Shown piece after piece: positions 13,100 to 30,636 of a DNA stretch of 64,000 bases. Where the stretch lies: positions 1 to 64,000 of the forward strand of contig JALHPU010000018.1 in the NCBI GenBank assembly GCA_022842325.1. The letters run 5' to 3'. The notes below the pieces were generated by a model that did not search any database, was not told the DNA's origin, and worked only from the letters and a program-made list of their open reading frames with translations. This stretch comes from Sulfuritalea sp. (GTDB lineage Bacteria > Pseudomonadota > Gammaproteobacteria > Burkholderiales > Rhodocyclaceae). How positions within the stretch are numbered: the stretch's first letter is position 1; the number at the start of each line of letters is the position of its first letter. Both the position numbers and the translations under genes were made by a program.

Positions 13100-14884
13100 A
13101 TGAACTACGCCGCACCGCTGGCCGACATGCGCTTCCTGCTGCAGGAAGTCGCGGGGCTGCGCGAGATCGCGCAATTGCCCGGCTGCGAGGAGGCCACGCC
13201 CGACCTGGTCGACGCCGTGCTGGAGGAAGCCGGCAAGTTCGCCGCCGGCGTGCTGGCGCCGCTCAACAGTGTCGGCGACCGCGAGAGCTGCCGCCTCGAG
13301 AACGGCAAGGTCATCACGCCGCCGGGCTGGAGCGAAGCCTATAAAGCTTTCGCCGAGGGCGGCTGGGTCGGCCTCGGGCTCTCGCCCGACTACGGCGGCC
13401 AGGGTCTGCCCAAGTGCGTGGCGACTCCCGTCTGGGAAATGTGGTTCTCGGCCAATACGGCCTTCACCATGCTGCCACAGCTCAACACCGGCGAAGCCGA
13501 GGCCATCCTGCTCGCCGCCAGCGACGAACTCAAGGCCACCTACCTGCAGAAGCTGGTGACCGGCGAGTGGGGCGGCACCATGAACCTGACCGAGCCGCAG
13601 GCCGGCTCCGACCTCGCCGCGATCCGCTGCCGCGCCGAGCCGCAGGCCGACGGCAGCTACCGCCTCAGCGGGCAGAAGATTTTCATTTCCTACGGCGACC
13701 ACGAGATCACGCCCAACATCGTGCACCTGGTGCTGGCGCGCCTGCCCGATGCGCCGCCGGGCGTGAAGGGCATTTCGATGTTCCTGGTGCCCAAATATCT
13801 GGTCAATCCTGATGGCAGCCTTGGCGCGAAGAACGACGTGCGCTGCGTCGGCCTCGAACACAAGTTGGGCATCCACGGCAGCCCGACCTGCGCCATGAGC
13901 TTCGGCGACGGAGAAGGTGCCGTCGGCTGGATCGTCGGCCAGCCCAATCGCGGTCTCGAATACATGTTCATCATGATGAACGAGGCGCGCTTCGGCGTCG
14001 GCGTGCAGGGCATCGGCATCGGCGAGCGCGCCTACCAGCAGGCGCTGACCTTCGCCCGCGAGCGCGTGCAGGGGCGCGACGCGGTGACCGGCGCCGTGGG
14101 CCAGCCGATCATCAATCATCCCGACGTCAAACGCATGCTGCTGACCATGCGCGCCCGCATCATGGCCATGCGCGCGCTGGCCTGCACGGCAGCCGGCTGG
14201 TTCGATATCGCGCGCCACTCGCCGGACCAGCCCGCGGCCGACAAGGCGAAGCGCTACGTCGACCTGCTGATGCCGGTGGTCAAGGGCTGGAGCACCGAGA
14301 CCTGCCAGCAAATCTGCTACGACGCGATCCAGGTGCATGGCGGCATGGGTTTCGTCGAGGAAACCGGCGTCGCCCAGCACTACCGCGATGCGCGCATCAT
14401 CACCATCTACGAAGGCACCACCGGCATCCAGGCCAACGACCTGGTCGGGCGCAAGGTGCTGCGCGAAAACGGCGCGACCTTGCGCGAACTGATCATCGAA
14501 ATGCGCGGCGTCGCCGCCGACCTTGCGGCGACCGAAGGCATGCAATCCATGGCGGTGCGCCTCGACGAGGACATCGCCGCGCTGAAACGTGCGCTGGACT
14601 GGATCCTGGCGAATGGCAAGGACAAGCTGGCCGCCGTGCTGGCTGGCGCGGTGCCTTTCCTGCACTTGCTGGGAACGGTCTGCGGCAGCTGGCAGCTCGC
14701 GCGCGTCGCGCTCGCCGCAACGCGGCAGGGCGACGGCAACAGCTACGGCGCCGACTACCTGCGCGGCCTGATCGAACTCGCCCGCTTCCACGCCCACGCC
14801 CTCGCGGTGCAGGCGCCGGCCCTGTCGGCGGCAATAGTCGGCGCTGGCGAGACGGCGGCCGAGAGCAGGTACGCCCTTCAGTAA
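13100..14884 (+). CDS. Acyl-CoA dehydrogenase, long C-terminal-domain type
   Basis: A flavin (FAD) acyl-CoA dehydrogenase of 594 residues, the DmdC/long type with an extra C-terminal domain beyond the usual ~380. The FAD/substrate motif MNLTEPQAGSDLA and the RFGVGVQGIGI helix are present. The catalytic base is the Glu of IYEGTTGIQ (about 438). The start ATG at 13100 follows a G-rich ribosome-binding stretch; the frame is open upstream through the hairpin spacer but that part is not protein-like. It would desaturate an aryl-propanoyl or similar acyl-CoA in the pathway begun by the ligase. The last 16 codons include a dispersed-repeat copy. Confidence 0.9.
   Translation: MNYAAPLADMRFLLQEVAGLREIAQLPGCEEATPDLVDAVLEEAGKFAAGVLAPLNSVGDRESCRLENGKVITPPGWSEAYKAFAEGGWVGLGLSPDYGGQGLPKCVATPVWEMWFSANTAFTMLPQLNTGEAEAILLAASDELKATYLQKLVTGEWGGTMNLTEPQAGSDLAAIRCRAEPQADGSYRLSGQKIFISYGDHEITPNIVHLVLARLPDAPPGVKGISMFLVPKYLVNPDGSLGAKNDVRCVGLEHKLGIHGSPTCAMSFGDGEGAVGWIVGQPNRGLEYMFIMMNEARFGVGVQGIGIGERAYQQALTFARERVQGRDAVTGAVGQPIINHPDVKRMLLTMRARIMAMRALACTAAGWFDIARHSPDQPAADKAKRYVDLLMPVVKGWSTETCQQICYDAIQVHGGMGFVEETGVAQHYRDARIITIYEGTTGIQANDLVGRKVLRENGATLRELIIEMRGVAADLAATEGMQSMAVRLDEDIAALKRALDWILANGKDKLAAVLAGAVPFLHLLGTVCGSWQLARVALAATRQGDGNSYGADYLRGLIELARFHAHALAVQAPALSAAIVGAGETAAESRYALQ
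14836..14858 (+). repeat. Dispersed 22-nt repeat at the 3' end of the acyl-CoA dehydrogenase
   Basis: It starts AGTCGGCGCTGG and ends GACGGCGG. It encodes VGAGETAA, ten codons before the stop. Confidence 0.75.
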
Positions 14885-14924
14885 GCGGGGCGTCGCGGCT
14901 TGATCCCGTAGTCCGATTGCCGAC

Positions 14925-14953
14925 TTCACCGGCATCAGTACGATGCCGGTGAA
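14925..14953. terminator. Perfect 12-bp hairpin between convergent genes
   Basis: TTCACCGGCATC and GATGCCGGTGAA pair around a 5-base loop. There is no strong T-run, but the position between the acyl-CoA dehydrogenase and the convergent lysR fits a bidirectional terminator. Confidence 0.6.
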
Positions 14954-15064
14954 TGATTGGAGTCTGGGACTCTGCCGAGCTCACACAATCGGCCATCAGC
15001 GGACGTAGTGCCCTCCAAAAACAGATGCGTTTGAACGGCGGGTAACTCATCAGATACCTGCCGT

Positions 15065-16019
15065 TCAGCCCAGTGTAAGCGAGGCCGCTCCAATCGCTAT
15101 TGCCGCGGTCACGTTGTCGCGGTCCCAATAGGGCTCGGTACCGATGCGAGCAATCAGGAAGTCGATGAAGGCGCGCACCTTCGCAGGCAAGTGCCGGGAC
15201 GGCAGATACATCGCATAGACGTGGCGCTCGACCGGGATGTACTCCGAAAGCACCGCCTGCAACTTCCCAGCCTGCAAGTCCTTGCCAATAATAAACGTCG
15301 GTAGTAGCGCCACGCCCAGACCACCCAAGACTGCCTGCGACAAGGCCTCGTCGTCATCGACATGCAGCGAACCTGAAACCGGTACGTCGATTTCTCCCTT
15401 TGGTCCATTGAACCGCCACAAGCCGTGCTCTCCGGAACGGGTGTAGTTCAGGCAGTTGTGATGCACCAGATCGGCGGGGATGAGCGGCAGGCCGATTTTT
15501 TCAAAATACGCCGGCGTACCGCACAATTTGCACCGCACGGGTGCGAGCTTTCTCGCCACCAGGGTCAGCGGCGGTTGGGCCGTGACGCGAATAGCCATGT
15601 CGTACCCCTCCTCGGCCAGATCGATCAGGCGGTCGGTGATGGTGAGCTCCATCTTCAATCTCGGGTACGCGGTGAGGAAATCGGTCAGCGTCGGGGCGGT
15701 GTGCAACGTGCCGAAGGCCACCGAGGCGCTGACACGAAGAGTGCCGCGGGGCTCGTCGTTGATGCTGCCGACGACCTGCTCGAGTTGATGCGCCTCTTCC
15801 AGGATCCGCCCCGAATGGGCTGCCACGACCTTGGCCGATCTCGATCAGACTCAAGTACCGCGTGGTGCGATTGAGCAGGCGGGCTCCCAGGGCGATTTCC
15901 AGTTTGGCGACTGCCTTGCTGACCGCTGAACGGGAAGTGCTCAGGCGACGTGCGGCTTCAGCAAAACTGCCCGCCTCGGCTACGCGGGCAAATACCGCCA
16001 ACAAATTCAGATCAAACAT
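15065..16019 (-). pseudogene. LysR-type regulator, module copy A, frameshifted
   Basis: The N-terminal winged helix (MFDLNLLAVFARVAEAGSFAEA... RTTRYLSLIEIG) and the co-inducer-binding domain (RILEEAHQLEQV to the stop) lie in two frames. Removing one base in the GGCC at 15833-15836 restores a full-length LysR protein colinear with the intact paralogue at 27364-28284, so this is a single-base insertion (real decay or a sequencing error). Both paralogues share the SASVAFGTLH, RHVYAMYLP and PPYWDR-like segments. It is divergent from the rnk-like gene across an operator-like palindrome. If truly broken, regulation of module A may fall to the paralogue at 27.4 kb. Confidence 0.85.
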
Positions 16020-16055
16020 GAAGCCGCGCCTTATCCGACTGGTCTTGCGTTCAAT

Positions 16056-16074
16056 TGTATCCCTGGAGGATACA
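16056..16074. promoter_or_regulatory. Operator-like palindrome between lysR and rnk, copy A
   Basis: TGTATCC-CTGGA-GGATACA. The T-N11-A type dyad fits a LysR-binding site, and the ATACAAT on the lysR strand could be its -10 box. A related but less symmetric sequence occupies the same place in copy B (27337-27355). Confidence 0.55.
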
Positions 16075-16132
16075 TTTTGATTCCGATCCTGGGACTAATC
16101 AAGCCACGGTCTGTTGGCTAACATGCACCATT

Positions 16133-16579
16133 ATGAAACACGTCAATGCATCTGCCGATTTCCGCCATGACTCGCCCCCACAGAGGCCAGAGGATTTGGT
16201 CGTATCCCTGAGCGATTACGTCCGCTTGCGCGAACTCGTCGAAGATCACGCCTTGGCCGAAGAGCTGGAGCGGGCAATTGTTATTCCATCGGATCGTATC
16301 CCGAAGGATGTGGTCACGATGAACTCCCGCCTGATCTACTCCGACGAAAGTACCGGAATGACGCGCGAAGTCGAGTTGGTTTACCCCGACGAGGCCGATC
16401 ACGTGACGGGCCGGGTTTCGGTATTGGCCCCTGTCGGTTGCGCGCTCCTGGGCTTGAGTGTCGGGCAGTCGATTGACTGGGATCTACAGGGCGGCAAGGT
16501 TCATCGCCTGCGAGTCGAGCGTGTGCTTTCTCAGTCGCTGCACAGCGGCACCGAGTCGGCCGCCGTCGAGACCTGTTAG
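16133..16579 (+). CDS. Rnk/GreA-C-domain regulator, module copy A
   Basis: A 148-residue protein with an N-terminal helical region (about residues 1-55) and a GreA/GreB-type C-terminal domain (VVTMNSRLIYSDESTG, VSVLAPVGCALLGLSVGQSIDW). This matches the regulator-of-nucleoside-diphosphate-kinase (Rnk) group, which binds RNA polymerase near the secondary channel and modulates transcription. The start at 16133 is chosen because the copy-B gene begins at the equivalent codon and upstream sequence is not conserved. It is the first gene of a rightward set of five small genes and lies divergent to lysR. Confidence 0.82.
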   Translation: MKHVNASADFRHDSPPQRPEDLVVSLSDYVRLRELVEDHALAEELERAIVIPSDRIPKDVVTMNSRLIYSDESTGMTREVELVYPDEADHVTGRVSVLAPVGCALLGLSVGQSIDWDLQGGKVHRLRVERVLSQSLHSGTESAAVETC

Positions 16580-16593
16580 CCAGCGGCATCAGC

Positions 16594-16872
16594 ATGCAGA
16601 CACCGTGGATCAACGTGCTGACACGTCACACCAATTGCCTGCTTACCCAACAACCGGGACAGGTTTTTCACGCCATAAGCCGGGAATTCGAGTCGACTCT
16701 GATCCGTTGTGCACTGGCCGCCACGGGTGGGAGCCGCATGGATGCCGCCCGCTTGCTGGATATCGGCCGCAACACCATCACACGCAAGATCACCGCATTC
16801 GGGCTGGACAATATGGATGACTCATCCCGCCAGACGCACAAATCGCGGTCCCGCTCAAAACGGACTAAATAA
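16594..16872 (+). CDS. Fis-type HTH protein, module copy A
   Basis: A 92-residue DNA-binding protein whose C-terminal half (STLIRCALAATGG, RMDAARLLDIGRNTITRKI) is the Fis/NtrC helix-turn-helix. The N-terminal part resembles the Fis arm. The tail is rich in Arg, Lys and Ser. It could act as a nucleoid-associated or activator-type factor. It begins 14 bases after rnk. The copy-B homologue at 26554-26808 shares roughly three quarters of residues by eye, with best conservation in the HTH. Confidence 0.8.
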   Translation: MQTPWINVLTRHTNCLLTQQPGQVFHAISREFESTLIRCALAATGGSRMDAARLLDIGRNTITRKITAFGLDNMDDSSRQTHKSRSRSKRTK

Positions 16873-16895
16873 CAAACCACGCCGAGGAGGATCAA

Positions 16896-17129
16896 ATGGC
16901 GAAATCACGAAACATCACTTCACCTGTTAAAGCGACCCCCGATTTGGCAGAAAAGAATAGCGACAGACTGCATCCGGTCACACCGGACCAACGCTATCAC
17001 TATGTCGAGGTCGCCGCTTACTACATCGCTGAAAAACGAGGCTTCGATACCGGGTCTACTGAAGAAGACTGGGCGCAGGCGGAACTGGAAATTGATCGTT
17101 TGTTGGCTGAGCGGCAGATCAATCACTGA
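16896..17129 (+). CDS. DUF2934 small protein, module copy A
   Basis: A 77-residue protein with the DUF2934 pattern in its second half: an aromatic AAYYIAEKRGF helix, then EEDWAQAELEIDRLL. The first half is polar and probably disordered. DUF2934 proteins are short and of unknown role, often near stress or mobile genes. A strong GAGGAGGAT ribosome-binding site precedes the ATG. It is intact here but frameshifted in copy B. Confidence 0.78.
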   Translation: MAKSRNITSPVKATPDLAEKNSDRLHPVTPDQRYHYVEVAAYYIAEKRGFDTGSTEEDWAQAELEIDRLLAERQINH

Positions 17130-17221
17130 ATGGGGCCTGTAGGTGCAATCCATTTCCTCGCAGCCTGACAAATTCAAACTGTCCGGTCGTCAATCCGAGC
17201 GGAAATCCCAGGAGGAACAAC

Positions 17222-17431
17222 TTGAACTCGATTTCACCCGATTCGGTATTGAAATTGTTCCGTCAAAATACCTTCCTTGACCTACGCAAGCTGGCCTTCC
17301 AGCTGGGCGTTGATACCGCCAATTCAATGCTCGCAGCGGTCATCGGCAATCTGCAGCGAACTGGAAAAATTCGCCGCATTGGGGGAAAAGGTCGTCACAC
17401 CCGGTTCGTGCTGGCGACGTTTGATGGATGA
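17222..17431 (+). CDS. Small winged-helix protein, module copy A
   Basis: A 69-residue protein predicted as a minimal winged helix: LDLRKLAFQLGVD, then VIGNLQRTGKIRRIGGKGRHTRFVLATF, where the basic GKIRRIGGKGRH turn looks like a DNA-binding wing. The TTG start is supported by GGAGGAAC 8 bases upstream; there is no nearby ATG. The copy-B homologue (25954-26199) keeps the wing almost unchanged. Function is unknown, but DNA binding is likely from the shape and charge. Confidence 0.7.
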   Translation: MNSISPDSVLKLFRQNTFLDLRKLAFQLGVDTANSMLAAVIGNLQRTGKIRRIGGKGRHTRFVLATFDG

Positions 17432-17503
17432 AGCTATGACCGGACTTTTTTAGATGCGGATCACTGACAGTTTTGGGTACCCAGAACACCAAGGAGGACA
17501 GCC

Positions 17504-17731
17504 ATGTTTCCGGAATATCGTGAGTTAATTTCTCAACTCAAGGCGAATGACCGTCACTTTGACAGCCTATTCAATAAGCACCATGAACTGAATCAGAAGA
17601 TCCAGCTCATGGAGGCCCATGTCGAGCCGGCTAGTCATGAAGATATCGAGATTTTGAAAAAGAAAAAATTGCGGATCAAGGACGAGATGTACGACTTGCT
17701 TAGAAAAGCCAGCGCAACCCAAGCGGCATGA
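17504..17731 (+). CDS. YdcH/DUF465 small helical protein, module copy A
   Basis: A 75-residue two-helix protein matching DUF465 (YdcH): YRELISQLKANDRHFDSLFNKHHELN forms helix one, and EIEILKKKKLRIKDEMY-type sequence forms helix two. These proteins form small coiled coils of unclear function. AAGGAGG lies just upstream of the ATG. It is the last gene of the duplicated module; the copy-B homologue is at 25642-25884. Confidence 0.85.
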   Translation: MFPEYRELISQLKANDRHFDSLFNKHHELNQKIQLMEAHVEPASHEDIEILKKKKLRIKDEMYDLLRKASATQAA

Positions 17732-17779
17732 AAACCTTATGTGACGTAAAACCCGTCTCCCTCATGCGGAGGCCAGCGT

Positions 17780-18043
17780 ATGGCACGTCCTAATTCAAAA
17801 ATGCTTCCCAAGGATCTTATCGCCTTCATCGAAAACGGCATCATCGAGAAGATAACCATCAGCCGGTCATCCCCCGTTGCCGCTTGGTCGGTTTCTGCCT
17901 ATGGACGGGCCTTGCCAGCCGATGCCATCGCAATGATCGAACTCAACCTCGAAGGCTGCCAGCGGCTATGGGCCGATCTCGATGCCGCCTACAGCTTCAT
18001 TCGCAAATGTGGCTTCCATGACCATGTGTTGATCGAGGGCTGA
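17780..18043 (+). CDS. Unrecognised 87-residue protein
   Basis: I do not recognise this family. The protein is soluble, has KDLIAFIENGIIEKITISR near the start and a helical second half (DAAYSFIRKCGF). It follows ydcH by 48 bases with a plausible ribosome-binding site (GGAGGCCAGCG) and normal codon bias for the island. Copy B of the module has no counterpart, so it is either cargo or a lost module member. Confidence 0.55.
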   Translation: MARPNSKMLPKDLIAFIENGIIEKITISRSSPVAAWSVSAYGRALPADAIAMIELNLEGCQRLWADLDAAYSFIRKCGFHDHVLIEG

Positions 18044-18153
18044 CTGTCCAGGACGTGGGAGGCGTCTCGTTTTTTCTGGCCTGGGCGGCCCGGCAGTGAT
18101 GCCGCGGGATTCGATGAGATATCCTCTGGATCCTCCCCGGAGAATGTGAATCG

Positions 18154-19473
18154 ATGAACGCTCTCGCGATATTGGTGTTACTGATCTTGATCTGCGGCTT
18201 TTTTGCTTTGGCAGAAATGGCCCTGGCTGCATCGAGACGGTCCCGCCTGCAGCTTCTGGTCGATACCGGCAGCCACGCTGCGGCACGGGCGTTGCACATC
18301 AAGGAAACACCCTCGCGCTTCATTGCCGCCACGCAAACCGGACTGACCACCGCGAGCCTGTTGGCGGGCATCTTCGGCGAAAATGCCCTGGCCGCGCACA
18401 TCGAGAATTTCATCGCAGCGTCACTACCGCTGCTGACGGCGGTGCGCAGCGAGATCGCGTTGACGACTACCGTCATCGTGGTCACTGCCTTTGCCATCGT
18501 TTTTGGCGAAATCGTGCCCAAGCGCATCGCCCTCGCCTATCCGGAACAGGTGGCCAGTCTGGTTGCCCCGTTCATGCAGTTGTTCATCCGCACCCTGTCG
18601 CCGGCCATCCGTTTGCTGTCATGGTCCGCCGACCTCGTGTTGAAGGTGCTGCCGATCCGTTCCGCGCCTGAAGTGACCGGTGTGGAGGATATCCTCGCCG
18701 CGGTGGATGAAGGTATCAGGTCGGGCGCCATCGCGCCGGAAGAGAGTCATCTGCTGGGCAATGTGTTTTTGCTCGAAGGTCGTCATGTAGCCGCCGTCAT
18801 GACACCACTGAAGGATGTCGCCTTCATCGACCTTGACCGCTCACACAATGAGAACCTGCATGTCCTGCGCGAAGCGCCGCATGGCCGCTATCCGATTTGC
18901 AGAAGCAGTTTGCAGAAAGTGGTCGGTTTGGCGGAAAGCCGTACACTTCTCCAGGCTGCGCTCTCCGGTGGCTTGAAGCACTTTGACGACTTGCCGCTCA
19001 CGCCACCCCTTTACGTCCCGGCCAGTCTGACTTTGTTGGAGCTATTGCGGACGTTTCGTGAGCGTAACGTTGACTTCGCCCTGGTCGTCAATGAATTCGG
19101 CCTGACCGAAGGCGTGGTCACCATCAGCGATCTGTTTCAGACCATGGCGGGCAACATGATGCCCGGCGCCGATGATCCGGAACAATCACTCGCCGTGCAA
19201 CGGGAAGATGGTTCATGGCTGCTCGATGGACTGCTCCCCATAGACCAGCTACAGAACAAACTCGAAATCCCGGGACTCGGCGAAGATGCCAATGGCCTGT
19301 ATCACACGGTCGGCGGCTTTGTGGTGGCGCACATGGGCAAAATTCCCAGGCGCGCAGAAAAATTTCGCTATGGCGAATGGCAGTTCGAGGTCGTGGATAT
19401 GGATCACAACCGGGTCGACGAGGTATTGGCCGTCAAAATGGAACCAGAGGTCCGGAATGTCTTGTCATTGTGA
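18154..19473 (+). CDS. CNNM/CorC-type membrane protein (DUF21, CBS pair, CorC_HlyC)
   Basis: A 439-residue inner-membrane protein: an N-terminal DUF21 domain with about four hydrophobic segments (residues 1-150, including the FGEIVPKRIALAYPE signature), a CBS pair (about 205-330) and a CorC_HlyC domain at the C-terminus (ADGLYHTVGGFV-like to EVVDMDHNRVDEV). This is the PaeA/YtfL/YfjD arrangement. Relatives export Mg, Co or polyamines, but the substrate here is not determined. It is the first non-module gene inside the island. A Kef-antiporter fragment follows 24 bases later, so an ion-transport pair may once have existed. Confidence 0.88.
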   Translation: MNALAILVLLILICGFFALAEMALAASRRSRLQLLVDTGSHAAARALHIKETPSRFIAATQTGLTTASLLAGIFGENALAAHIENFIAASLPLLTAVRSEIALTTTVIVVTAFAIVFGEIVPKRIALAYPEQVASLVAPFMQLFIRTLSPAIRLLSWSADLVLKVLPIRSAPEVTGVEDILAAVDEGIRSGAIAPEESHLLGNVFLLEGRHVAAVMTPLKDVAFIDLDRSHNENLHVLREAPHGRYPICRSSLQKVVGLAESRTLLQAALSGGLKHFDDLPLTPPLYVPASLTLLELLRTFRERNVDFALVVNEFGLTEGVVTISDLFQTMAGNMMPGADDPEQSLAVQREDGSWLLDGLLPIDQLQNKLEIPGLGEDANGLYHTVGGFVVAHMGKIPRRAEKFRYGEWQFEVVDMDHNRVDEVLAVKMEPEVRNVLSL

Positions 19474-19497
19474 AATGTTCTCTTAGAGATAAGTCTT

Positions 19498-19659
19498 TTG
19501 GATCATCTGGTTCAAATCAATCTCCTGCTGTCTGTAATCGTGGCGGTAATGGTCACGTTTCAGCGGCTGCTTCATATCCCCTCCAGCGTCGGTTACCTGC
19601 TAGTTGGCCTGATCCTTGGCCAGGTTCAACGGCAGCATTGCCCGAGGTGCGGAAACTGA
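19498..19659 (+). pseudogene. N-terminal fragment of a Kef-type cation:proton antiporter
   Basis: A 54-codon frame starting TTG encodes two hydrophobic stretches in the order of monovalent cation:proton antiporter-2 proteins: NLLLSVIVAVMVTF, then RLLHIPSSVGYLLVGLILGQ. The family continues for 350 residues or more, whereas here the frame stops at 19657-19659 and the next bases show no continuation in any frame that I can read. It is a truncated gene left after deletion or rearrangement. Confidence 0.6.
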
Positions 19660-19998
19660 CTATCCGGCAGGTTACGAACTTGGATCTGTCGTTCCACCGG
19701 ATAGAATCTGATCTAGTGGCGGACCGGACCCGGCCATTGAGACAAAACGGCGCCATGCTAACTGCAGGTAACTGATCTGAAGCCGGCCTTTTGAATCATC
19801 GCGAATGGACAGCAATAACAGCGGAGTACATTTGATTCGATGAGTGGGATATCACTCGACGGTCCAATGATGCCATAGGCATCGAAGAGGCGAGCAACTT
19901 CGATAGGGTCAAGGCTGATTATCGCGGTACACAATCATCAGTGTTTTGCCTGGTCCGAAGCATGGGGGGGCGGCATTGAGGACGGCACCACAAAAGCT
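19660..19998. other. Gene-free stretch between Kef fragment and SHMT
   Basis: I see no convincing reading frame, RNA or repeat here. Since the Kef fragment ends abruptly at its left edge, it is probably a rearrangement scar. Confidence 0.5.
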
Positions 19999-21324
19999 TC
20001 AGTACGGCAATGGAAACCGTTGGCAGAGACTTTCTACCTGATCCATCGCAGTTTGTACAACCAGATCGTTGGGATGCGCTGGATTTTCCGAAACCGCTTG
20101 AAGCATGCACAGGATCATCGAACCGATGGTACGGAATTCGGCAGCACCGAATCCACGACTTGTCCCGCATGGGCTCCCGACGCGGATGCCTGAAGTGACC
20201 ATCGGTGTTTCAGGGTCATTGGGAATGGCATTCTTGTTGAGCGTGATACCGACACGTTCGAGAGCTTTCTCTACAACGTTACCCGTGAGTTTGAACGGGC
20301 GGAGGTCAGCCACCAACAAGTGAGTATCCGTGCCGCCGGTGACAATCGGCAGTCCGTCTGCGGCGAGGGTTTCGGCCAGCGCTTGGGCATTTTGGACAAC
20401 CCGAGCGGCATAGGATCGGAAGGAAGGCTGCAAGGCTTCTCCGAAAGCTACTGCCTTGGCGCCGATCACATGCATGAGCGGCCCGCCTTGCAGTCCCGGG
20501 AAAATGGCCGAATTGATGGCCTTGCCAAGTTCGGGGTCGTTGCTGAGGATGAGTCCGCCACGAGGGCCACGGAGTGTCTTGTGCGTGGTCGACGTCACGA
20601 CATGGGCGTGGGGGAACGGCGACGGATGGGCGCCACCGGCGACCAGGCCTGCGAAGTGCGCCATGTCGACCATCAGTAGCGCGCCGACCGTGTCGGCAAT
20701 ACGCCGGAATTCGGCGAAATCGAGTATCCGCGAGTATGCCGAGCCGCCCACGATGATGAGCTTGGGGCGATGTTCGAGTGCGAGTCGTTCCACCTCCTTC
20801 ATGTCGACACGATGGTCGTCCGGCCGCACGCCGTAGGCGATTGCGTGAAACCATTTGCCCGAGATGTTCATTGGCGCACCATGCGTCAGATGACCGCCGG
20901 CCGCCAATCCCAAGCCAAGGATGGTGTCGCCCGGCTTCAGCAGGGCAAGATAGACCGCCTGATTGGCCTGACTGCCCGAGTGGGGCTGCACGTTGGCATA
21001 GGCACAGCCAAACAGCGCCTTGGCGCGTTCAATGGATAGAATTTCAATCGCATCGACATGCGTGCAGCCGCCGTAGTAGCGTCGGCCGGGATACCCCTCG
21101 GCATATTTGTTGGTTAGTACCGATCCCTGCATTTCGAGCACGGCACGGCTCACGAAATTCTCCGACGCAATCAACTCGATCGAGTGCCGCTGCCGCTCGT
21201 GCTCGCGCAGGACGTGACATGCCACGTCGGGATCAGCCTCGGCCAGCGGCCCTGATGCATGGACGCGGAATGCATTCGCCGCTGGTGGAGCCATGGAATG
21301 CAGGATGTCGGCTTGCTGGTTCAA
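19999..21324 (-). CDS. Serine hydroxymethyltransferase-family enzyme
   Basis: A PLP enzyme of the GlyA family: [12 protein letters not shown], the [11 protein letters not shown] loop, [12 protein letters not shown] with the PLP lysine, and a full-length C-terminal domain. The family transfers a hydroxymethyl group between serine (or alpha-methylserine and relatives) and tetrahydrofolate. I favour a TTG start at 21324, 8 bases after AGGAG; an ATG at 21393 overlaps the upstream transporter gene by 11 bases. The island position, downstream of a BenE-type transporter and next to a MocR regulator, suggests a catabolic paralogue rather than the housekeeping glyA. The natural substrate is unknown. 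Confidence 0.85.
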
Positions 21325-21382
21325 GATACTTTCTCCTGTGTGGGTAGCTAATAATGGGTCTGATGTGATTGCGTGTCCGGGC

Positions 21383-22609
21383 TTATCGTCCATCCCCTAC
21401 ACCGGAGCGACTCAAGCGCGGAAACCACCGCGACAGGCGAAAGTCGCCATGAATCAGTCCGTGCGCTACCAGGCCTGCCGCAAGTCCCCAGAACGCACCG
21501 CCCAGTCCGAACAGCGTGATATTGGCCGCCGTCGCGAGGAAGGTGATCAGCGCCGTTTCGCGTCCGCGCAAATCAACCAGTGCCGTGGCAAGGCTGCCAC
21601 CAATCGCCCCCAGCAAGGCAAGGCCGGCCAGCGTCGTGATGAAGGTCGGCGGCAGCACCACGAACAAGGTTGCCAGCGTCGTGCCGAAGACGCCAACGAG
21701 GATGTAGAACATGCCGCAGGCAAGACCGGCGATATACCGTTTCCCGGCTTCTTCGTGCGACTCCTTGCCAGTGCAGATCGCCGCCGTGATTGCCGCCACG
21801 TTGAAGGCATGCGAGCCGAATGGCGCCATCAGCAGCGAGCCGAATCCTGTCACGGTGAGGATTGGATTCGCACTGGTCTTGAATCCGTCGTTGCGCAGTA
21901 CCAGCATGCCCGGCATGTACTGGCCGGTCAGCGTAATGACAAACAGGGGAAACGCGACGCTGAGCAGTGCGGTCATCGAGAAGGCGGGGGGCGTGAATAC
22001 CGGCATGGCCAGTTCCAGGGCCACGGTTCCGAAGCTGACCTGTCCCATGCTGAGCAGGAGGGCGATGCCGGCGATCAGCACGCCGACGATCGCATAGCGT
22101 GCGGTGAACCGCCGCAGCAAGGCATAGGTGAGTATCAACGCGCCGACGAGCAAAGGGTCCATGCCTGCGCCGCCAAAGGCGCCGATACCGAAGCGCAGCA
22201 GAATGCCGGCGAGCAGCCCGGCGGCGATTCCGGGCGGAATCATCTTCACGACCCGCTCGAAATAGCCCGACGCCCCCAGCACGATGAAGCCGACGGCCGA
22301 CAGCATGTAGGCACCGATCATTTCCGCGTAGGGCGTATTCGGCAGCACGGCAATGAGGAAGGCCGCGCCCGGCGTGGACCAGGCGGTAATGATCGGCTCA
22401 CGATAGCGGAAACTCAGCCAGGCGCCGGTCAAGCCGACGCCAATCGAGACCGACCAGATCCACGAAGCCGTCTGCTCGGGACTGAGCCCCGCCACCTTCG
22501 CCCCCTGAAACACCAGGATGAACGTGCCACCGTAATTGACGATGACGGAGATGAGCGCCGCGATGATCGGGTGCGTCAGGTCCGCAGGCCGGATGGAATC
22601 GGTAGTCAT
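21383..22609 (-). CDS. BenE-family (benzoate/H+ symporter-like) transporter
   Basis: A 408-residue inner-membrane protein with about twelve hydrophobic segments, starting [22 protein letters not shown]. Conserved BenE/YdcO features include [23 protein letters not shown] and [18 protein letters not shown]. The name derives from benzoate uptake, but many members have unknown substrates. It is the first gene of a leftward operon with the SHMT gene, whose longest frame overlaps its 3' end. It is divergent from the MocR gene across a palindromic promoter. An amino acid or aromatic amino-acid-like substrate is an inference from the PLP partners. Confidence 0.88.
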
Positions 22610-22668
22610 GCGTCGTGTCCTTGAATGTGATTGAGTTGCCTGGCGCCCAGAATGCCTGCAAAATGGCC

Positions 22669-22692
22669 TCACATAAATATCCACTTATGTGA
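22669..22692. promoter_or_regulatory. Palindromic operator between benE and mocR
   Basis: TCACATAA and TTATGTGA face each other across eight bases, in an A+T-rich patch flanked by TGGCC and GGCCA. AATAT occurs beside each arm, giving a direct-repeat component like that of MocR/PdxR sites. It is a probable binding site for the divergent MocR protein. Confidence 0.55.
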
Positions 22693-22749
22693 ATATTTAA
22701 GGCCACTTTCCCCTTTGTGAGTGGCATTCAAATAAAACAGGAATCCCGC

Positions 22750-24303
22750 ATGAAAACTCGCGCCACCGCTTATCCGATCTGGAACCGCTTTCAGCGGTCG
22801 TCTGACGACCCGCTGTCTTTGCGCGAGCAACTGGTGCGGTTCTTTCGCAAAGGGGTGGCCGACGGCACCTTGCAACCCGGTATTCGGTTGCCGGCCTCGC
22901 GCGTGCTGGCGCAGGAACTCGGTTTATCGCGGATTACCGTCTCCGGCGCTTATGAGCAACTTGTCGCAGAGGGCTTTCTGGAAGCGCGGCGGGGAGCCGG
23001 AACCTATGTGGCAGCGCGGATTGCCAAGCAAAAGCCGCTTTCATCTGCGTCTTGGTCTCAGGAACGACAACGCGCGCCTGTTTCGGTACGGGCGGGTCGT
23101 CTGGTAGGGGTGGATTCAATGTCAATGGCGCGTGCGGCATGGCCACTCACGCCCGGTCTGCCGGCACTGGATGCGTTCCCCTATGCGCTTTGGGGCCGCC
23201 TCGAAGGCCGCTTCTGGCGTCGCCGGCCGACTCCCGATCTCTCTTACGGCGATCCCCAGGGCTTTCTGCCGTTGCGCGAGGCCTTGGCAGAGTATCTGGG
23301 CGCCGCGCGTGGTGTTGTCTGCAATGCGCAGCAGATCATCATCGCGCCTGGTGCGCAAGCTGCGATTGCGATCGCTACACTGACACTTACCGATATTGGC
23401 GATCGCGTCTGGGTCGAAAACCCTGGGTACGATGCCGCGTACCGTAGCCTGGTTCTTGCCGGGGTGACTGCGGTGGGTATCCGTGTCGATGCCGAAGGGC
23501 TGGATGTTGACGATGGACGGAACCGCGCTCCCGACGCACGACTCGCCATGGTGTCTCCATCGCATCAATACCCGATGGGCGTCACCATGAGCCTGGCGCG
23601 GCGTCTCGCGTTGCTGCAATGGGCCAATGATGCCAACGCATTCATCCTCGAAGACGATTACGACAGCGAATTTCGCTATGAATGCGCGCCAGCACCCGCG
23701 CTCAAGGCGCTCGATGGCGGCAACGGACGCGTGATTTACATCGGTACGCTCAGCAAGTTGCTCGCCCCCGGTCTGAGGCTGGGCTTCCTGGTCGCCCCCG
23801 ACGATTTGATCGACGCGCTATGCGCAGTCCGTAATGGTACTGACCACCGCGTTCCGATGCCGCTTCAGACCACGGCGGCCGAGTTCATCGGTAATGGTCA
23901 CCTGGGCACACACATTCGGCGCTCTAAAGTGCTCTACACCGAACGGCGCGCAGCGTTGCTGTCCGCGACCGGTTCGGAGGGCGGTAGATGGCTGGCCATG
24001 CCGACAGCGTCGACCGGGCTGCATCTGGTCACCGAGTTGCCTGATTGTTGTAACGATCAGGCACTCGCTGCGGCCGCGCGGACGCAGCAGATTGGCGTCA
24101 CGCCATTGTCGGGATATTTCATCGATACCTCCAGAACAAAAAAACAAGGGCTGCTAATGGGATTTGGGAATACCCGCCCGGAATCGATGAAGGGAGCGAT
24201 TCGGACGCTATGTCGCCTGATCGAAGCAGGGAGCAAATCGTCAAGTATCTATTCGGGTGGTGATAGATCGAACAACGAGTCACTAATCATGACAAGTTAC
24301 TGA
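22750..24303 (+). CDS. MocR/PdxR-type regulator (GntR HTH plus aminotransferase domain)
   Basis: A 517-residue fusion: an N-terminal GntR winged helix (LREQLVRFFRKGVADGTLQP, LPASRVLAQELGLSR, about 20-85) and a class I aminotransferase-like domain (about 130-480) with SPSHQYPMG, DDYDSEFRY and the PLP lysine in IGTLSKLLAPGLR. MocR proteins bind PLP as an external aldimine with an effector amino acid or amine and regulate neighbouring transport or catabolic genes. It is divergent from the BenE-SHMT operon, its most likely target. The ATG at 22750 has CAGGA upstream. Confidence 0.9.
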   Translation: MKTRATAYPIWNRFQRSSDDPLSLREQLVRFFRKGVADGTLQPGIRLPASRVLAQELGLSRITVSGAYEQLVAEGFLEARRGAGTYVAARIAKQKPLSSASWSQERQRAPVSVRAGRLVGVDSMSMARAAWPLTPGLPALDAFPYALWGRLEGRFWRRRPTPDLSYGDPQGFLPLREALAEYLGAARGVVCNAQQIIIAPGAQAAIAIATLTLTDIGDRVWVENPGYDAAYRSLVLAGVTAVGIRVDAEGLDVDDGRNRAPDARLAMVSPSHQYPMGVTMSLARRLALLQWANDANAFILEDDYDSEFRYECAPAPALKALDGGNGRVIYIGTLSKLLAPGLRLGFLVAPDDLIDALCAVRNGTDHRVPMPLQTTAAEFIGNGHLGTHIRRSKVLYTERRAALLSATGSEGGRWLAMPTASTGLHLVTELPDCCNDQALAAAARTQQIGVTPLSGYFIDTSRTKKQGLLMGFGNTRPESMKGAIRTLCRLIEAGSKSSSIYSGGDRSNNESLIMTSY

Positions 24304-24709
24304 AGAACATTGACTGTCCAGTTACCTGGCTCGGCCAGTGATTGATCTGTTCCAAATCCCGGCTCCCATCAATTGAAGGTTGTGAAGCACCCATTGGACA
24401 CGCTGCGGCACCAACGTTCTTCTGGGGTGGTTACTCCGCCAGGGCTAAGGCAGGTCATCGCCGAATGCTTGATCCTGATGGGTGGCTGGCGCAATTCGTC
24501 GCAGCCATATATTGAAGAAACGGGCGTGGTCTGAAACTGCAGATGGGAAGTTGAAAGAATAGAAATTGGCGGCTAAACCCGCCACGGGTTTGTTTGCTCG
24601 CTTGGCACAGGCCGGCTAATGGGTGACCGCCTTGATCTGGCCTCATTACAAGCGAGGCTTGGGACCGGCGTGCTGAGTTGGGACTTAAGTCACCATTCAA
24701 CAGCAAGCT
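24304..24709. other. Gene-free stretch after mocR
   Basis: About 400 bases without a convincing reading frame, RNA or repeat. mocR and the exonuclease gene converge here, yet no strong terminator hairpin is visible. Confidence 0.5.
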
Positions 24710-25303
24710 TTACTCATTGGTTATCAGGTCTGGAGTAGATAAAGGCTCAACGAGTTCGAGGTTGCCGCACAGCATGTTGCAGAACAGGCTACCCTGCTCG
24801 ATCGCATCATCCAGCGCCACGTGGGTATGAGCAACGGGATCGAACCACTCGGGCGGCATCGATTGCTTGCCGCAAGCACGATACGGTTTACGCATCATCG
24901 CCATCGCGTAAGTCTTGATGTCGATTGCCGAATAGCCGAAGGGGTTCTCGCCTGCATATTGGGTGAGATACCAATACACGAAAGAAAAATCAAAAACGGC
25001 TGGGTAGGCGACGAAGACCGGCTTTCCGGGCAGGGCCTTGAGCCATGCCAAGTAGCGTGGCATGGCAACTCGCGGATGTTCGAGATTCTGCCTGCACGCC
25101 GACCACGCGTCAGCCTGCGTTGCCCACCAGGCGGTGGTTTTCGGATCAGCGGTGAATTCCGGCAGCGTTTCCAGATTGGCGGTATAGGTTGACAATAGCC
25201 TTTTGTCGGCCGAGTACGCTGCCGATCCAATGCTCAACATCGAGTGCTTTCCTGCCACCGGACCGTCGGTCTCGACGTCAGTGCTGACGTAGATCTCATT
25301 CAT
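24710..25303 (-). CDS. DEDDh 3'-5' exonuclease-like protein
   Basis: A 197-residue exonuclease-fold protein with the DnaQ-like motifs: ExoI TDVETDG (about 8-14), Exo[12 protein letters not shown] (about 92-101) and Exo[14 protein letters not shown] (about 156-166). The acidic residues expected to bind two metals are present. Similar stand-alone proteins act on RNA or DNA ends, but the substrate is not evident. The start at 25303 is preceded by GGAGGAAAG, and the longer frame upstream is unlikely. It lies between mocR and module copy B with no obvious partner. Confidence 0.82.
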
Positions 25304-25641
25304 GGGCACTTTCCTCCGGGTTTCGATATCTATCCAACACAAGGTTCTGTGGAACCCCAACGTAATATCCATTGACAGGCGACGACGGAAATCGACCGTG
25401 TGGCACGCAAATTCGATATTCTTATAAATTAAGCTCTCGGTTGCTGGGCTGCGGAAGGTCCAAACATGGATTCATGTGTAGAGCAGAATTACCCCAGTGC
25501 GAAATTCTTGTGTGTCACCGCTTGATGACCGCACTTGTTGCGCGCGCGCCATTGATTGATCGGTGTGCGCATCTTTCATTGATCAGGGCCAACCTTGTGC
25601 AAACGCCCGACCAGACCGGAAGGTGTCGGATCACACTGTGG
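25304..25641. other. Gene-free stretch upstream of the exonuclease gene
   Basis: It holds the exonuclease promoter region and the downstream flank of module copy B. No supported gene or RNA was seen. Confidence 0.5.
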
Positions 25642-25884
25642 TTATTTTAAGTCGCGCACGATGATCAATTTGGCGTGCGCACGAGCAAGCAATTCGTACA
25701 TTTCTTCCCTGATCTGCAGTTTCCTCTTTTTCAAGATCTGAATTTCTTCATGATTGTCCGGTTCAATATGGGCCTCCATGTTCTTGACTGTTTGATCCAG
25801 TTCGTTGTGCTTGCTGAACAGGGAATCAAAGTAGCGATCACTCGCCTTGAGTTGAGAAATTAGCTCCCGATATTCCGGAACCAT
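25642..25884 (-). CDS. YdcH/DUF465 small helical protein, module copy B
   Basis: Homologue of the copy-A gene at 17504. The ATG at 25884 (preceded by AAGGAGG) gives MVPEYRELISQLKASDRYFD, colinear with copy A, and the second helix IQILKKRKLQIREEMYEL. The C-terminus is slightly longer and differs from copy A. It is the last gene of the leftward set. Function is unknown. Confidence 0.83.
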   Translation of the reverse strand: MVPEYRELISQLKASDRYFDSLFSKHNELDQTVKNMEAHIEPDNHEEIQILKKRKLQIREEMYELLARAHAKLIIVRDLK

Positions 25885-25953
25885 TCTTATACCTCCTTGG
25901 TGTCCCAATAATTCCAAACGAAAATTCTATTTCGACAGAACCCGATCACGGCC

Positions 25954-26199
25954 TCATCCTTCAAATGTTGCTAGCACAAACAAGGTGTGACGACCTTTCC
26001 CGCCAATGCGGCGGATCTTTCCATTTCGCTCCAGATTGCCGACGGCCATCGCGAGCGCTGCATTGAGGGTATCGACACCAAGCTTTACGGCCAGTTTGCG
26101 CAGATCAAGGAAAGCATTCTGGCGGAACACGTTCAATACCGACTCGTTTGAAATGGAATTAACGCTATCTCTTCTGAATTGTTCGGCTCGAATTGACAT
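25954..26199 (-). CDS. Small winged-helix protein, module copy B
   Basis: Homologue of 17222-17431 with the wing (GKIRRIGGKGRH) and LDLRKL helix kept. The TTG start of copy A is not preserved here (GTT at that codon), and an upstream ATG at 26199 (MSIRAEQFRRDSVNS) is the likeliest start. The product is 81 residues, longer at the N-terminus. The divergence is strongest in the first residues and in the helix before the wing. Confidence 0.65.
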   Translation of the reverse strand: MSIRAEQFRRDSVNSISNESVLNVFRQNAFLDLRKLAVKLGVDTLNAALAMAVGNLERNGKIRRIGGKGRHTLFVLATFEG

Positions 26200-26277
26200 G
26201 GCTGACGACACCAAAGTATGTATATGTCAAACAGTGTGAAACTGGAATCCACCAGAAGGCAAGCTTCAATGATTGGT

Positions 26278-26507
26278 TTACCCCTCGCCCAATAAGCGAT
26301 TTATTTCCAGTTCCGCTTGTGCCCAATTTTCGTCTGCAGACCCGACATCAAAGCCTCGTCGTTCGGCTATGTAGTAAGCAGCTACCTCAACATATTGATA
26401 GTGTGGTAGCGCTGCTCTGGTGCGACCGGACAAAGCATGTCGGCGATCTTTTCTGCTGCATCAGGTATGGTTTTAACGGGTGACGCGAACTTGGTTGATT
26501 TCGCCAT
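26278..26507 (-). pseudogene. DUF2934 gene, module copy B, frameshifted
   Basis: It starts with GGAGGAGAATCAA and MAKSTKFASPVK, as copy A does, but an 8-base insertion (ACTATCAA region) after the RYH codons shifts the frame to a stop a few codons later. Reading past it recovers the copy-A C-terminus (VEVAAYYIAERRGFD, NWAQAELEINRLL). It lies between the winged-helix gene and the Fis-type gene, exactly as in copy A. Confidence 0.8.
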
Positions 26508-26553
26508 TTGATTCTCCTCCGTGAGGGGTGTTATTCAGTGTGTTTTGGCAGGA

Positions 26554-26808
26554 CTACGATCTCCGTATGTGGCGGGATGAGGGATCGGCACTATCCAGCC
26601 CATAAGCATGAATCTTGCGTGCGATGGTGCTACGGCCAATGCCCAGCAAGCGGGCTGCATCGATGCGACATCCGCCCGTGGCGGCAAGGGCGCAACGAAT
26701 CAGGGTTGACTCGACATCCTGGCTCATTGCGCGAAACACATCGCCTGGTTGTTGGGTGAGCAAACAATTGGTTTTCCGTGTCAGTGCATTGATCCATGAA
26801 GTCTGCAT
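26554..26808 (-). CDS. Fis-type HTH protein, module copy B
   Basis: An 84-residue counterpart of the copy-A Fis-like protein with the same opening (MQTSWINALTRKTNCLLTQQ) and HTH (RIDAARLLGIGRSTIARKI). The basic tail is shorter. It starts two bases after the rnk-like stop, a tighter coupling than in copy A. It is probably DNA-binding; target sites are unknown. Confidence 0.8.
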   Translation of the reverse strand: MQTSWINALTRKTNCLLTQQPGDVFRAMSQDVESTLIRCALAATGGCRIDAARLLGIGRSTIARKIHAYGLDSADPSSRHIRRS

Positions 26809-26810
26809 GG

Positions 26811-27278
26811 CTATGCTGCTGGCGAGAGAGGTCCGGCTACCGCGGGGTTTGTGCCGCTGGATTGAGGCTGAAAGAGCACACGCTCGACGCGCAGGCGATG
26901 TACCTGGCCATTCGGCAAATTCCAGTCAATCGACTGTCCGGTACTCAGGCCCAGTAAAGCGCAACCGACAGGGGCCAATACAGAAACCCGGCCAGCCACG
27001 GAATCTGCTTCATTGGGGTAAACCAACTCGATTTCACGTGTCGTACCGGTGCTTTCGTCAGAGTAGACCAGGCGGGTGTTCATGGTGACCACGTTCTCCG
27101 GAATACGATCCGATGGAGCTACAATGGCCCGATCCAGCTCTTCGGCCAGGTCATGATCTCCGAGAATTTCGCGCAAGCGCACATAATCATCCAAACAGAT
27201 GACCAAGTCACTCCGTAGTCTGTCGCGGTAGGTTGTCGCTTCATTGCGCGAGTGGGTTGCTGTAGTTTCGTGTCTCAT
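26811..27278 (-). CDS. Rnk/GreA-C-domain regulator, module copy B
   Basis: A 155-residue homologue of 16133-16579. The N-terminal helices are more diverged (DLVICLDDYVRLREILGDHD) while the GreA-like domain (VSVLAPVGCALLGLSTGQSIDW) is nearly unchanged. It is the first gene of the leftward set, divergent from the intact lysR. Like other Rnk proteins it may act on RNA polymerase. Confidence 0.82.
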   Translation of the reverse strand: MRHETTATHSRNEATTYRDRLRSDLVICLDDYVRLREILGDHDLAEELDRAIVAPSDRIPENVVTMNTRLVYSDESTGTTREIELVYPNEADSVAGRVSVLAPVGCALLGLSTGQSIDWNLPNGQVHRLRVERVLFQPQSSGTNPAVAGPLSPAA

Positions 27279-27336
27279 AATGGTGCATGCTACCTAAAAA
27301 TAATGCGATTGATTAGCTACACGATTGGAATCAGAA

Positions 27337-27355
27337 TGTCTCTCCGAGGGATACA
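27337..27355. promoter_or_regulatory. Operator-like sequence between lysR and rnk, copy B
   Basis: TGTCTCT...GGGATACA, related to the perfect palindrome of copy A. GGAATCA and AATGT precede it in both copies, and GGGATACAAT can be the lysR -10 region in both. Confidence 0.5.
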
Positions 27356-27363
27356 ATAGCCAC

Positions 27364-28284
27364 ATGCTTGATTTGAATTTGTTGACCGTATTTTCGCGCG
27401 TGGTAGAGGCCGGCAGCTTTGCCGAGGCGGCGCGGCGCTTGTCAAGTTCCCGTTCGGTGGTGAGCAAAGCCGTCGCCAAACTGGAGGTGGCTCTCGGTGC
27501 GCGACTACTCAATCGCACAACCCGCCACTTGAGCCTGACCGAGATTGGCACCGCGGTTGCCGAGCATGGCCGCCGTATCGCCGAAGAAGCGGCGGATGTC
27601 GAGAATCTTGTTGCCAGCCTCACATCCGAACCTCGCGGCGTACTAAGAATAAGTGCATCCGTTGCTTTTGGGACGCTTCATGTCGCACCGGCACTCGCCG
27701 AATTTCTGCCCCAATATCCAAAAATCAAGGTGGACCTGACGATCACCGACCGGTGGGTTGATCTTGCCGAGGAGGGCTACGATCTGATGATTCAGGTTAC
27801 GGGGCAACCGCAAGAACATTTGGTTGCCCGAAAGCTGGCGCCCGTCCGTCGCCAATTGTGTGCAACCCCTGAGTATTTTCGTCAGCGGGGCATTCCGCAA
27901 ACGCCGATGGATCTGGTAGCCCACAACTGTCTCGATTACACCCGCTCAGGCGAACAGGGACGTTGGCTTTTTACCGGGCCGGCGGGTGATATTTCTGTAC
28001 CGGTGAATGGCCCGCTACATGTGGACGATGACGAAGCGCTATCGCAAGCCGTACTTGGCGGACTGGGGATGGGCTTGCTGCCAACCTTTATCGTCGGCAA
28101 GGACATTCAGAGCGGGCGCCTGCAAGCCGTCTTGTCGGAATACATCCCGGTGGAACGCCATGTTTACGCTATGTATCTGCCAACGCGACATTTGCCAAGC
28201 AAGGTCAGGGTATTCATTGATTTTTTGTTGACGCACATTGGCACCCCACCTTATTGGGATCGTTCAGAACAGACTGAGATCTAG
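27364..28284 (+). CDS. LysR-type regulator, module copy B, intact
   Basis: A 306-residue LysR protein: winged helix at residues 1-60 (FAEAARRLSSSRSVVSKAVAKLE), linker helix, and co-inducer domain (about 90-295) with VGKDIQSGRLQAVLSEY and RHVYAMYLPTRHLPSKVR. It is the intact paralogue of the frameshifted gene at 15065-16019. It resembles the AaeR/DsdC-like general LysR set, and the ligand is not predictable. It should control the divergent rnk-fis set through the palindrome at 27337 and may also act on module A. Confidence 0.88.
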   Translation: MLDLNLLTVFSRVVEAGSFAEAARRLSSSRSVVSKAVAKLEVALGARLLNRTTRHLSLTEIGTAVAEHGRRIAEEAADVENLVASLTSEPRGVLRISASVAFGTLHVAPALAEFLPQYPKIKVDLTITDRWVDLAEEGYDLMIQVTGQPQEHLVARKLAPVRRQLCATPEYFRQRGIPQTPMDLVAHNCLDYTRSGEQGRWLFTGPAGDISVPVNGPLHVDDDEALSQAVLGGLGMGLLPTFIVGKDIQSGRLQAVLSEYIPVERHVYAMYLPTRHLPSKVRVFIDFLLTHIGTPPYWDRSEQTEI

Positions 28285-28684
28285 TATCTGGCGGCCGTGC
28301 ACGGTCTGGTCTGTAGTGTGGCGGCTTTGCACTATTTCAAACCGATGCCACCTTATCCTCCAGTGATTGCAAAGGCCGAGGACCTGTCAGTCGTGCCAAG
28401 CTCATGACCGGCGGCTTATTGAAGTATGCCGGTTGCCTGGTAACGCATCTTTCCGACTCAGTCAGCGTCTTTTGGCGGTTGCAAAGGGTGGCGATTAGAA
28501 TGGCATGCGCACCATCTCAGTGCAAATGGTTTGAAGACGCCCCTTGGATTCAATAAGACAAAGTTATTGCTGAACTGCATTCAATTGGTGCATGTCAATT
28601 CACGCCGGCGCATGGATTTCGCGTATTCATAGTTGATCGCAATTCACGCGTCTATACGTTATTTACTCTTTTAAGGAATCAGAA
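28285..28684. other. Gene-free stretch upstream of gdhA, with a 10-bp direct repeat
   Basis: No gene is supported. CAATTCACGC occurs at 28596-28605 and 28640-28649, 44 bases apart on the same strand, about 80 and 36 bases before the gdhA start. It is a possible regulator-binding pair; nothing else stands out. Confidence 0.45.
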
Positions 28685-30028: not shown

Positions 30029-30231
30029 TAGCGGCTCGCCAGACCTATCTTTTGAAAACGGTCTGGCAGTTGTGCTGATCACACGAACTTTGTCGGGTGC
30101 ATTCAAATCGCAATCTTCTACAGCTCATTAGCGCGTCAGCCCCACGCAACTAACAGGCCTGATGGCATGTCTCCTAAGAAGTTCACCGATAGGAGATCGG
30201 TCATTGATCATGTGGCTGCAATGGGCACTTA

Positions 30232-30372
30232 GGGTGAGTAGCGATTTTCGATAAGCTGCCGCTCAGATTGGTCACCCAGAATTCTTTGCCGGTGATTTGA
30301 TGAACGACGGCAATACGCATTGTTGCTGCCCCTAAAGCAGCAAGCGCCCAATGGCCGTTCAGGCCGAACTTC
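30232..30372 (+). repeat. ~140-bp repeat, copy 1
   Basis: It begins GGGTGAGTAGCGATTTT and runs to about AGGCCGAACTTC. It matches copy 2 at 33320-33465, best over the last ~70 bases (GAACGACGGCAATACGCA and beyond). It is non-coding as read; the origin is unknown, possibly an IS or MITE remnant. Confidence 0.6.
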
Positions 30373-30524
30373 TGTCGGAAGGCTGGTTCGGATGAGCGGC
30401 AGGTTTAGGATCAGTAACCTGCCGCTGCCCATGAAAATATCATCAGGCCGCAATGGGCACGGTCCGGACCACGAGCTCTGCCGGCTGCGGCCATGCGATT
30501 TACATAACTGAGAACCTCAAGGAT

Positions 30525-30576: not shown

Positions 30577-30636
30577 GGTCAAATGTATCTGACGCTTTTG
30601 GCTAGTTGCCTTTATTGGCCGATGCGGTGAAATGTT

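Follow-up and report, generated by a model that had tools for sequence, protein, structure and literature searches.

In a stretch of 64,000 nucleotides from a metagenome-assembled genome (MAG) of Sulfuritalea sp. (contig JALHPU010000018.1, positions 1 to 64,000; hereafter the window), six genes encoding a LysR-type regulator, Rnk, a Fis-like protein, a DUF2934 protein, a small winged-helix protein and a YdcH (DUF465) protein occur twice, in one order and in inverted orientation. We consider it probable that the two modules are remote relatives of each other, each a copy of one mobile and mosaic operon that LysR switches and that serves in cation or pH stress, and that they met on a mobile segment.

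Homology between the modules is collinear from LysR to YdcH over ~2.7 kb on each side with the gene order kept, as the original prediction, made from the letters of the window, had stated. Eight collinear inverted-repeat arms of 57–359 nt pair 15834–17701 with 25687–27549 at 72–80% complementarity, a ninth arm of 49 nt lies in the promoter, and the homology stops at an equivalent point on both sides (17701 and 25687). Module 1 consists of LysR1 (15065–16019, reverse strand) and, on the forward strand, Rnk1 (16133–16579) and the Fis-like (16594–16872), DUF2934 (16896–17129), winged-helix (17222–17431) and YdcH (17504–17731) proteins. In module 2, LysR2 has an intact reading frame on the forward strand (27364–28284); Rnk2 (26811–27278) and the Fis-like (26554–26808), DUF2934 (26269–26507), winged-helix (25954–26163) and YdcH (25642–25884) proteins are encoded on the reverse strand. 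The modules had been described as running rightward and leftward, which is correct for the inverted pair, but LysR is divergent from the other five genes. Protein identity between the modules was 73% for LysR, 69% for Rnk, 76% for the Fis-like protein, 62% for DUF2934, 74% for the winged-helix protein and 68% for YdcH, in good agreement with the three quarters estimated by eye for the Fis-like and winged-helix proteins. The Pfam families named in advance were all recovered: LysR (PF00126 and PF03466), GreA_GreB (PF01272), HTH_8 (PF02954), DUF2934 (PF11154) and DUF465 (PF04325). LysR1 is frame-broken near 15826–15834, with two reading frames that match the LysR of locus L011 at 90 and 94%, and DUF2934 copy 2 is frame-broken near 26391–26448. 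In the congener G225, which carries the same pair, LysR1 is also broken, at positions other than those in the window; the LysR1 breaks could be decay or sequencing error.

Module 1 runs on past YdcH into orf87 (17780–18043, forward strand), a predicted CorC/PaeA-like CNNM exporter (18154–19473, forward strand) and, directly after it, a 5′ remnant of kefB (19498–19620, forward strand; 78% identical to residues 1–40 of KefB at locus L080). Module 2 stops at 25687, truncated at a 146-bp piece with imperfect terminal repeats (25542–25687; also in G225 and G310) that supplies the last residues of its YdcH. The full operon order is rnk, fis-like, duf2934, winged helix, ydcH, orf87, the CNNM gene and then usually a cation/proton antiporter gene. 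The gene directly after CorC was an antiporter or its 5′ remnant in six of the eight CorC-bearing copies: the window and G225 have the KefB remnant, G129 and G256 have Mrp, contig C15 of this genome has an Mrp fragment and G231 has a Kef-type antiporter. The exceptions were L011, without an antiporter directly after CorC, and G116, where CorC is truncated near a transposase. G023 has no CorC; its KefB, a universal stress protein and a Na/Ca exchanger follow ~1 kb past orf87. CorC is the best-conserved part of the module (92–98%). Because relatives carry CorC and Kef as a continuation of the module, we conclude that they are not cargo. The original prediction had the modules enclose CorC, a Kef fragment, SHMT-BenE-MocR and an exonuclease; the Kef fragment was confirmed, but CorC and Kef form the tail of module 1. 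The idea that two modules bound a cargo was not borne out by other genomes, which carry single modules, and that of a purely regulatory set gives way to a module that runs on into exporter and antiporter genes.

The order is not unique to this genome. In a sample of 297 genomes of the family, the winged-helix protein was found in 11 and orf87 in 10, and the full order was present in six genomes from four genera (this one, G225, G256, G129, G023 and G116); the other five winged-helix genomes had diverged or different arrangements. The full order was also found at one further MAG locus, L011. In the order-level sample, the winged-helix protein occurred in one of 399 genomes, which was this genome. 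A third copy in this genome, on contig C15, is without DUF2934. A scan of genome contigs with Rnk1 gave 41 loci, five of which were module-type (L010–L014); at the other 36, Rnk alone matched among 14 query proteins. Locus L013 showed LysR-Rnk-Fis-DUF2934 and no winged-helix match before the contig end. LysR and Rnk are also paired outside the module: of the 24 LysR loci retrieved (L147–L170, including L154 and L155, which are the G023 and G116 modules themselves), 20 had Rnk within the locus (~1.5 kb each side), in divergent orientation in 17, and L149, L151, L160 and L161 had no Rnk. Tandem pairs of Rnk matches beside such a LysR were seen at L159, L162, L163, L166, L169 and L170. We rejected a plasmid-borne module, as tblastn against plasmids matched Rnk in 242 records, all below 60% identity, and the winged-helix protein in none. 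Among the matches listed, no literature title or abstract opening described a module of this composition.

Between LysR and rnk lies the palindrome ATTGTATCC-N5-GGATACATT, a predicted LysR-type site (16054–16076 in module 1; 27335–27357 in module 2). We aligned 14 LysR-Rnk copies, comprising 13 modules and L150, and counted lengths from the sequences. In all 14, the distance from the first base of the palindrome through the rnk ATG was 82 bp, so that the palindrome begins 79 bp and is centred ~68 bp before the start codon; its distance to LysR varies among copies. A fifteenth row, L147, in which the rnk start was not fixed, fails to align in its last part. The end of the motif TA(A/G)CAT lies 8 bp upstream of the rnk start codon in 13 of the 14 copies; L011 has TAATAT instead. 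Such spacing would be compatible with a site for a LysR-type activator and with transcription that starts at or near the rnk start codon. We searched five genomes for the pattern, allowing ≤3 mismatches and counting places on either strand, with the reversed pattern as a control. This genome had three places, which are its three modules, G129, G023 and G256 had one each, and G225 had three (two modules and one other); the control gave one place, in G225. Within the window, three matches were obtained, two of them the module 1 site on both strands (0.03 expected). Since eight of the nine places are module promoters, LysR looks like a local switch, and the global regulation that had been proposed is disfavoured for this regulator.

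The two copies have separate histories. In the LysR tree, calculated without the G225 module 1 LysR, module 1 groups with G023, G116, L011 and L013 (100/99), and module 2 with G225 module 2, G256, G029, C15, G129 and G231 (99/99); the Rnk tree had weaker support and long branches. The DNA-binding helix-turn-helix (HTH) domains are nearly identical between the two LysR clades. As the tree separates the copies into two clades, each with relatives in other genera, they did not arise by duplication, and the original prediction was right to see no recent one. The synonymous divergence (dS) between the copies was 0.57–1.01 (four genes), compared with 0.09–0.38 to the G225 orthologues (seven genes). 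The ratio of nonsynonymous to synonymous divergence (dN/dS; window module 1 versus G225) was 0.15–0.41 in six of seven module genes, a sign that selection maintains the module. Copies are also mosaic. In G256, LysR-Rnk-Fis is 97–99% identical to window module 2 and YdcH-orf87-CorC is 95–98% identical to C15, with a jump in identity from 77 to 95% near 26490. Module 2 of G225 lacks the block from Fis to YdcH, with the gap running exactly from 26800 to 25687.

Both modules lie in a low-GC insertion between the ACAD gene and position 31097 (14884–31097). The guanine-cytosine (GC) content is 0.53–0.61 at 14.88–31.10 kb, 0.67 and 0.64 in the adjoining stretches and 0.60–0.66 in the rest of the window. 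The site is empty in two congeners, where ACAD and the sequence at ~31097 lie within 131 bp (G256) and 61 bp (G312). In G299 the same site holds a 10.9-kb insert with type I restriction genes (HsdM and HsdR by Pfam; L103 10910–17617), so that it may be an insertion hotspot. Congener G225 carries the same inverted pair and cargo elsewhere, between F-type conjugation genes, with TraI_2, TraU, TrbC and TraN on one side and TraH, TraC, TraK, TraE and a TraD/TrwB-like gene on the other. The segment is 94–98% identical to the G225 DNA, compared with 81–90% for orthologous core, short paralogous matches at ~70% having been set aside. In G302, a MAG with 6% contamination, pieces on contigs of 4.0 and 6.8 kb matched at 99.7%, compared with 77–83% for core. 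Beside the C15 module, three tyrosine recombinases and a DDE transposase were found (L009 1412–6133). The segment thus combines a departure in GC, an empty site in relatives and sporadic presence, as expected of a genomic island; junction sequences, inspected by eye only, showed no clear target duplication. That the module travels as a unit, as first suggested, agrees with its patchy distribution and its islands in at least three places (here, in G225 and beside C15).

Rnk1 belongs to the Rnk family, with the GreA/GreB C-terminal domain and a score above the NCBIfam Rnk equivalog cut-off (NF004396, 126.3 bits; cut-off 109). The Fis-like protein has an HTH_8 domain (1.1e-10) and scored below the cut-offs of the NCBIfam Fis equivalogs (NF001659, 18.3/99 bits; NF002517, 24.5/122 bits), and higher against the NtrC C-terminus than against Fis. 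The winged-helix protein had no match in Pfam, NCBIfam or PHROG; its predicted model was confident and winged-helix-like (predicted local distance difference test score, pLDDT, 85.8), and its profile matched PDB entries weakly (best E 0.019). LysR has HTH_1 and LysR_substrate domains and matched, in order, YafC (208/470 bits), PRK14997, TtdR and AaeR of NCBIfam. For CorC, which has CNNM, CBS and CorC_HlyC domains, the best NCBIfam match was PaeA, with a score below the cut-off; we regard it only as a PaeA-like CNNM protein and do not assign it as the PaeA polyamine exporter. No family match was obtained for orf87, a small protein that is conserved among copies, and its predicted model was poor (pLDDT 56.8). 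Relatives of orf87 in G008 (44–49%; L084 8840–9082, L085 3472–3717 and L086 10333–10650) each directly precede a recombinase-like ORF of 618–648 aa, with DUF3701 and Phage_integrase domains in the two that were scanned; orf87 may therefore be one member of a broader family linked to recombinases. A phage origin was rejected, since PHROGs, searched with six module proteins, gave only a match for Rnk (phrog_31535, of unknown function) and a weak one for the Fis-like protein. A defence system was likewise rejected: of the eight proteins run through PADLOC, the exonuclease gave a match and the Fis-like HTH a marginal one. No structured RNA or tRNA was found in the window.

We propose that LysR binds the palindrome ~68 bp before rnk and would switch on a promoter between this site and the start codon. 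The trigger may be a cation, pH or polyamine imbalance; the antiporter and CNNM genes would restore the ion balance, while Rnk, the Fis-like and winged-helix proteins and the two DUF proteins, expressed from the same putative operon, would adjust transcription. The antiporter may be the ancestral last gene. Since the copies differ little in their sites and in the DNA-binding domain of LysR, the intact LysR2 could also act on module 1, where LysR1 is frame-broken. One copy would have been tied to SHMT-BenE-MocR-exonuclease and the other to glutamate dehydrogenase, long separated before they were joined on the mobile segment, which may have passed from one Sulfuritalea-like species to another, in one case embedded as cargo in a set of conjugation genes.

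Several observations weigh against this proposal. The textbook LysR box is T-N11-A. The arms TGTATCC-N5-GGATACA give a T-N13-A symmetry instead, and the module 2 site has two mismatches with loss of arm complementarity. The scan for transcription signals also scored the palindrome of module 1 as a hairpin resembling a terminator, but the arms are not complementary in module 2. A consensus promoter scan found no sigma-70-like site for rnk (two sites elsewhere, 2.2 expected). A terminator-like hairpin separates orf87 from CorC (four such sites found, 4.5 expected from shuffles), so CorC may be a separate unit, and its substrate assignment is limited by the sub-cut-off PaeA score (337/500 bits). 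Four of the small genes are missing in G231 and G029 and are therefore dispensable, and the dN/dS of orf87 was 0.91, measured on two sequences that differ at the N-terminus. Among the scanned proteins of the 16.2-kb insertion, none was recognised as an integrase, and near the other copies no tra match was obtained at any of the 21 loci tested, the window and parts of C15 included; the transfer route is thus seen in G225 only. Finally, this MAG (4.89 Mb, 121 contigs, completeness 99.94) has a contamination of 5.15%.

That contamination, together with the G302 fragments, which run on into other sequence, could point to a chimeric pair or third copy created by assembly or binning. We regard such an artefact as very unlikely: the same inverted pair and cargo occur in a second MAG, G225, at 94–98%, and a C15 flank is 89.7% identical to G256, inside the 83–93% range of this genome's core to G256. 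An inverted duplication in situ in this lineage would account for the same order and inverted orientation. It is scarcely credible given the separate, well-supported LysR clades with relatives in other genera and the higher dS between the copies than to the G225 orthologues; the trees rule it out unless gene conversion with outsiders is invoked. There is also little to recommend the modules as inverted ends of a transposable unit carrying SHMT-BenE-MocR-exonuclease. Their orientation and a 157-bp repeat, inverted, at both outer ends in G225 would suit such a unit, but no transposase was present among the island proteins scanned, single modules exist in other genomes, the cargo genes stand without module matches at two G117 loci, and the modules are unlike in extent and content. 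Nor does the pair resemble the ends of a composite transposon, as the scanned module proteins are regulators or function-unassigned and encode no transposase.

The accessory global-regulation cassette of the original prediction, in which the ion genes are chance neighbours and the small proteins alter host transcription at large, is a more serious alternative, yet still an unlikely one. In its favour, the set is mobile, and its small genes code for factors that are either unknown or probably directed at DNA or polymerase. E. coli Rnk is, in the available text of a 2015 review, a competitor of Gre/DksA that binds to RNA polymerase and whose function is called unknown (PMC4598747). However, the LysR site pattern is nearly confined to modules, CorC is the best-conserved part with antiporters recurring after it, and G231, G029 and G225 module 2 retain LysR-Rnk without the four-gene block.

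Between the modules lies a separate gene group of SHMT (19999–21393, reverse strand; PF00464), a BenE transporter (21383–22684, reverse strand; PF03594), a MocR-type GntR/aminotransferase regulator (22717–24303, forward strand) and a 3′–5′ exonuclease-like protein (24710–25372, reverse strand; Pfam matches below cut-off, PADLOC PDLC00753, Effector, exonuclease, 7e-33). Beyond LysR2 follows an NADP glutamate dehydrogenase (28685–30028, forward strand; NF006929 above cut-off), which is near such a LysR also in G256 and G062; in the latter (L172 6653–8426), glutamate dehydrogenase and YdcH genes lie near a LysR-Rnk pair. A dispersed repeat of ~157 bp lies at the outer boundary on the side of module 2 (30221–30377), recurs at 33312–33456 and occurs at several rearrangement points; the region 30200–31100 matched at 16 places within this genome, in many cases only in part.

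A bolder extension, which we offer tentatively and think rather improbable as a whole, is that a conjugation-borne operon couples ion export to RNA polymerase reprogramming. A single-target LysR switch would release Rnk as a competitor that binds the polymerase, the Fis-like protein and a new winged-helix factor with the CNNM and antiporter proteins, giving the host a ready-made transcription state for cation stress, and copies in one cell would cross-talk via the shared operator and decay in complementary ways. If true, this would place Rnk in a natural setting, with an inducer of its own and a theme in physiology; DUF2934 and a family of winged-helix proteins that no library matches could be tested in context; and a regulator bank would spread as a unit while recombination reshuffles its parts.

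Parts of the module have counterparts in known systems. Like a genomic island or conjugative cargo, the segment has low GC, an empty site, patchy spread and, around the G225 copy, conjugation genes; it differs in that no integrase was recognised in the window insertion. Like known LysR-type regulators with a divergent operon, the window LysR has HTH_1 and LysR_substrate domains, a divergent target and a conserved palindrome at fixed spacing; it differs in scoring far under its best-match cut-off (YafC, 208/470) and in the T-N13-A symmetry of its site. PaeA and CorC of Salmonella act in excess-cation stress, according to the available text of PMC12421838. The window CorC shares the CNNM, CBS and CorC_HlyC domains with these proteins and has PaeA as its best NCBIfam match, but it lies below the PaeA cut-off and is accompanied by regulators and antiporters. 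Rnk1 resembles E. coli Rnk (PDB 3bmb) in passing the NCBIfam cut-off and in its profile matches to 3bmb and 2pn0. In contrast to E. coli Rnk, considering the context on the window side alone, it adjoins a divergent LysR and is joined by further small proteins and an exporter.

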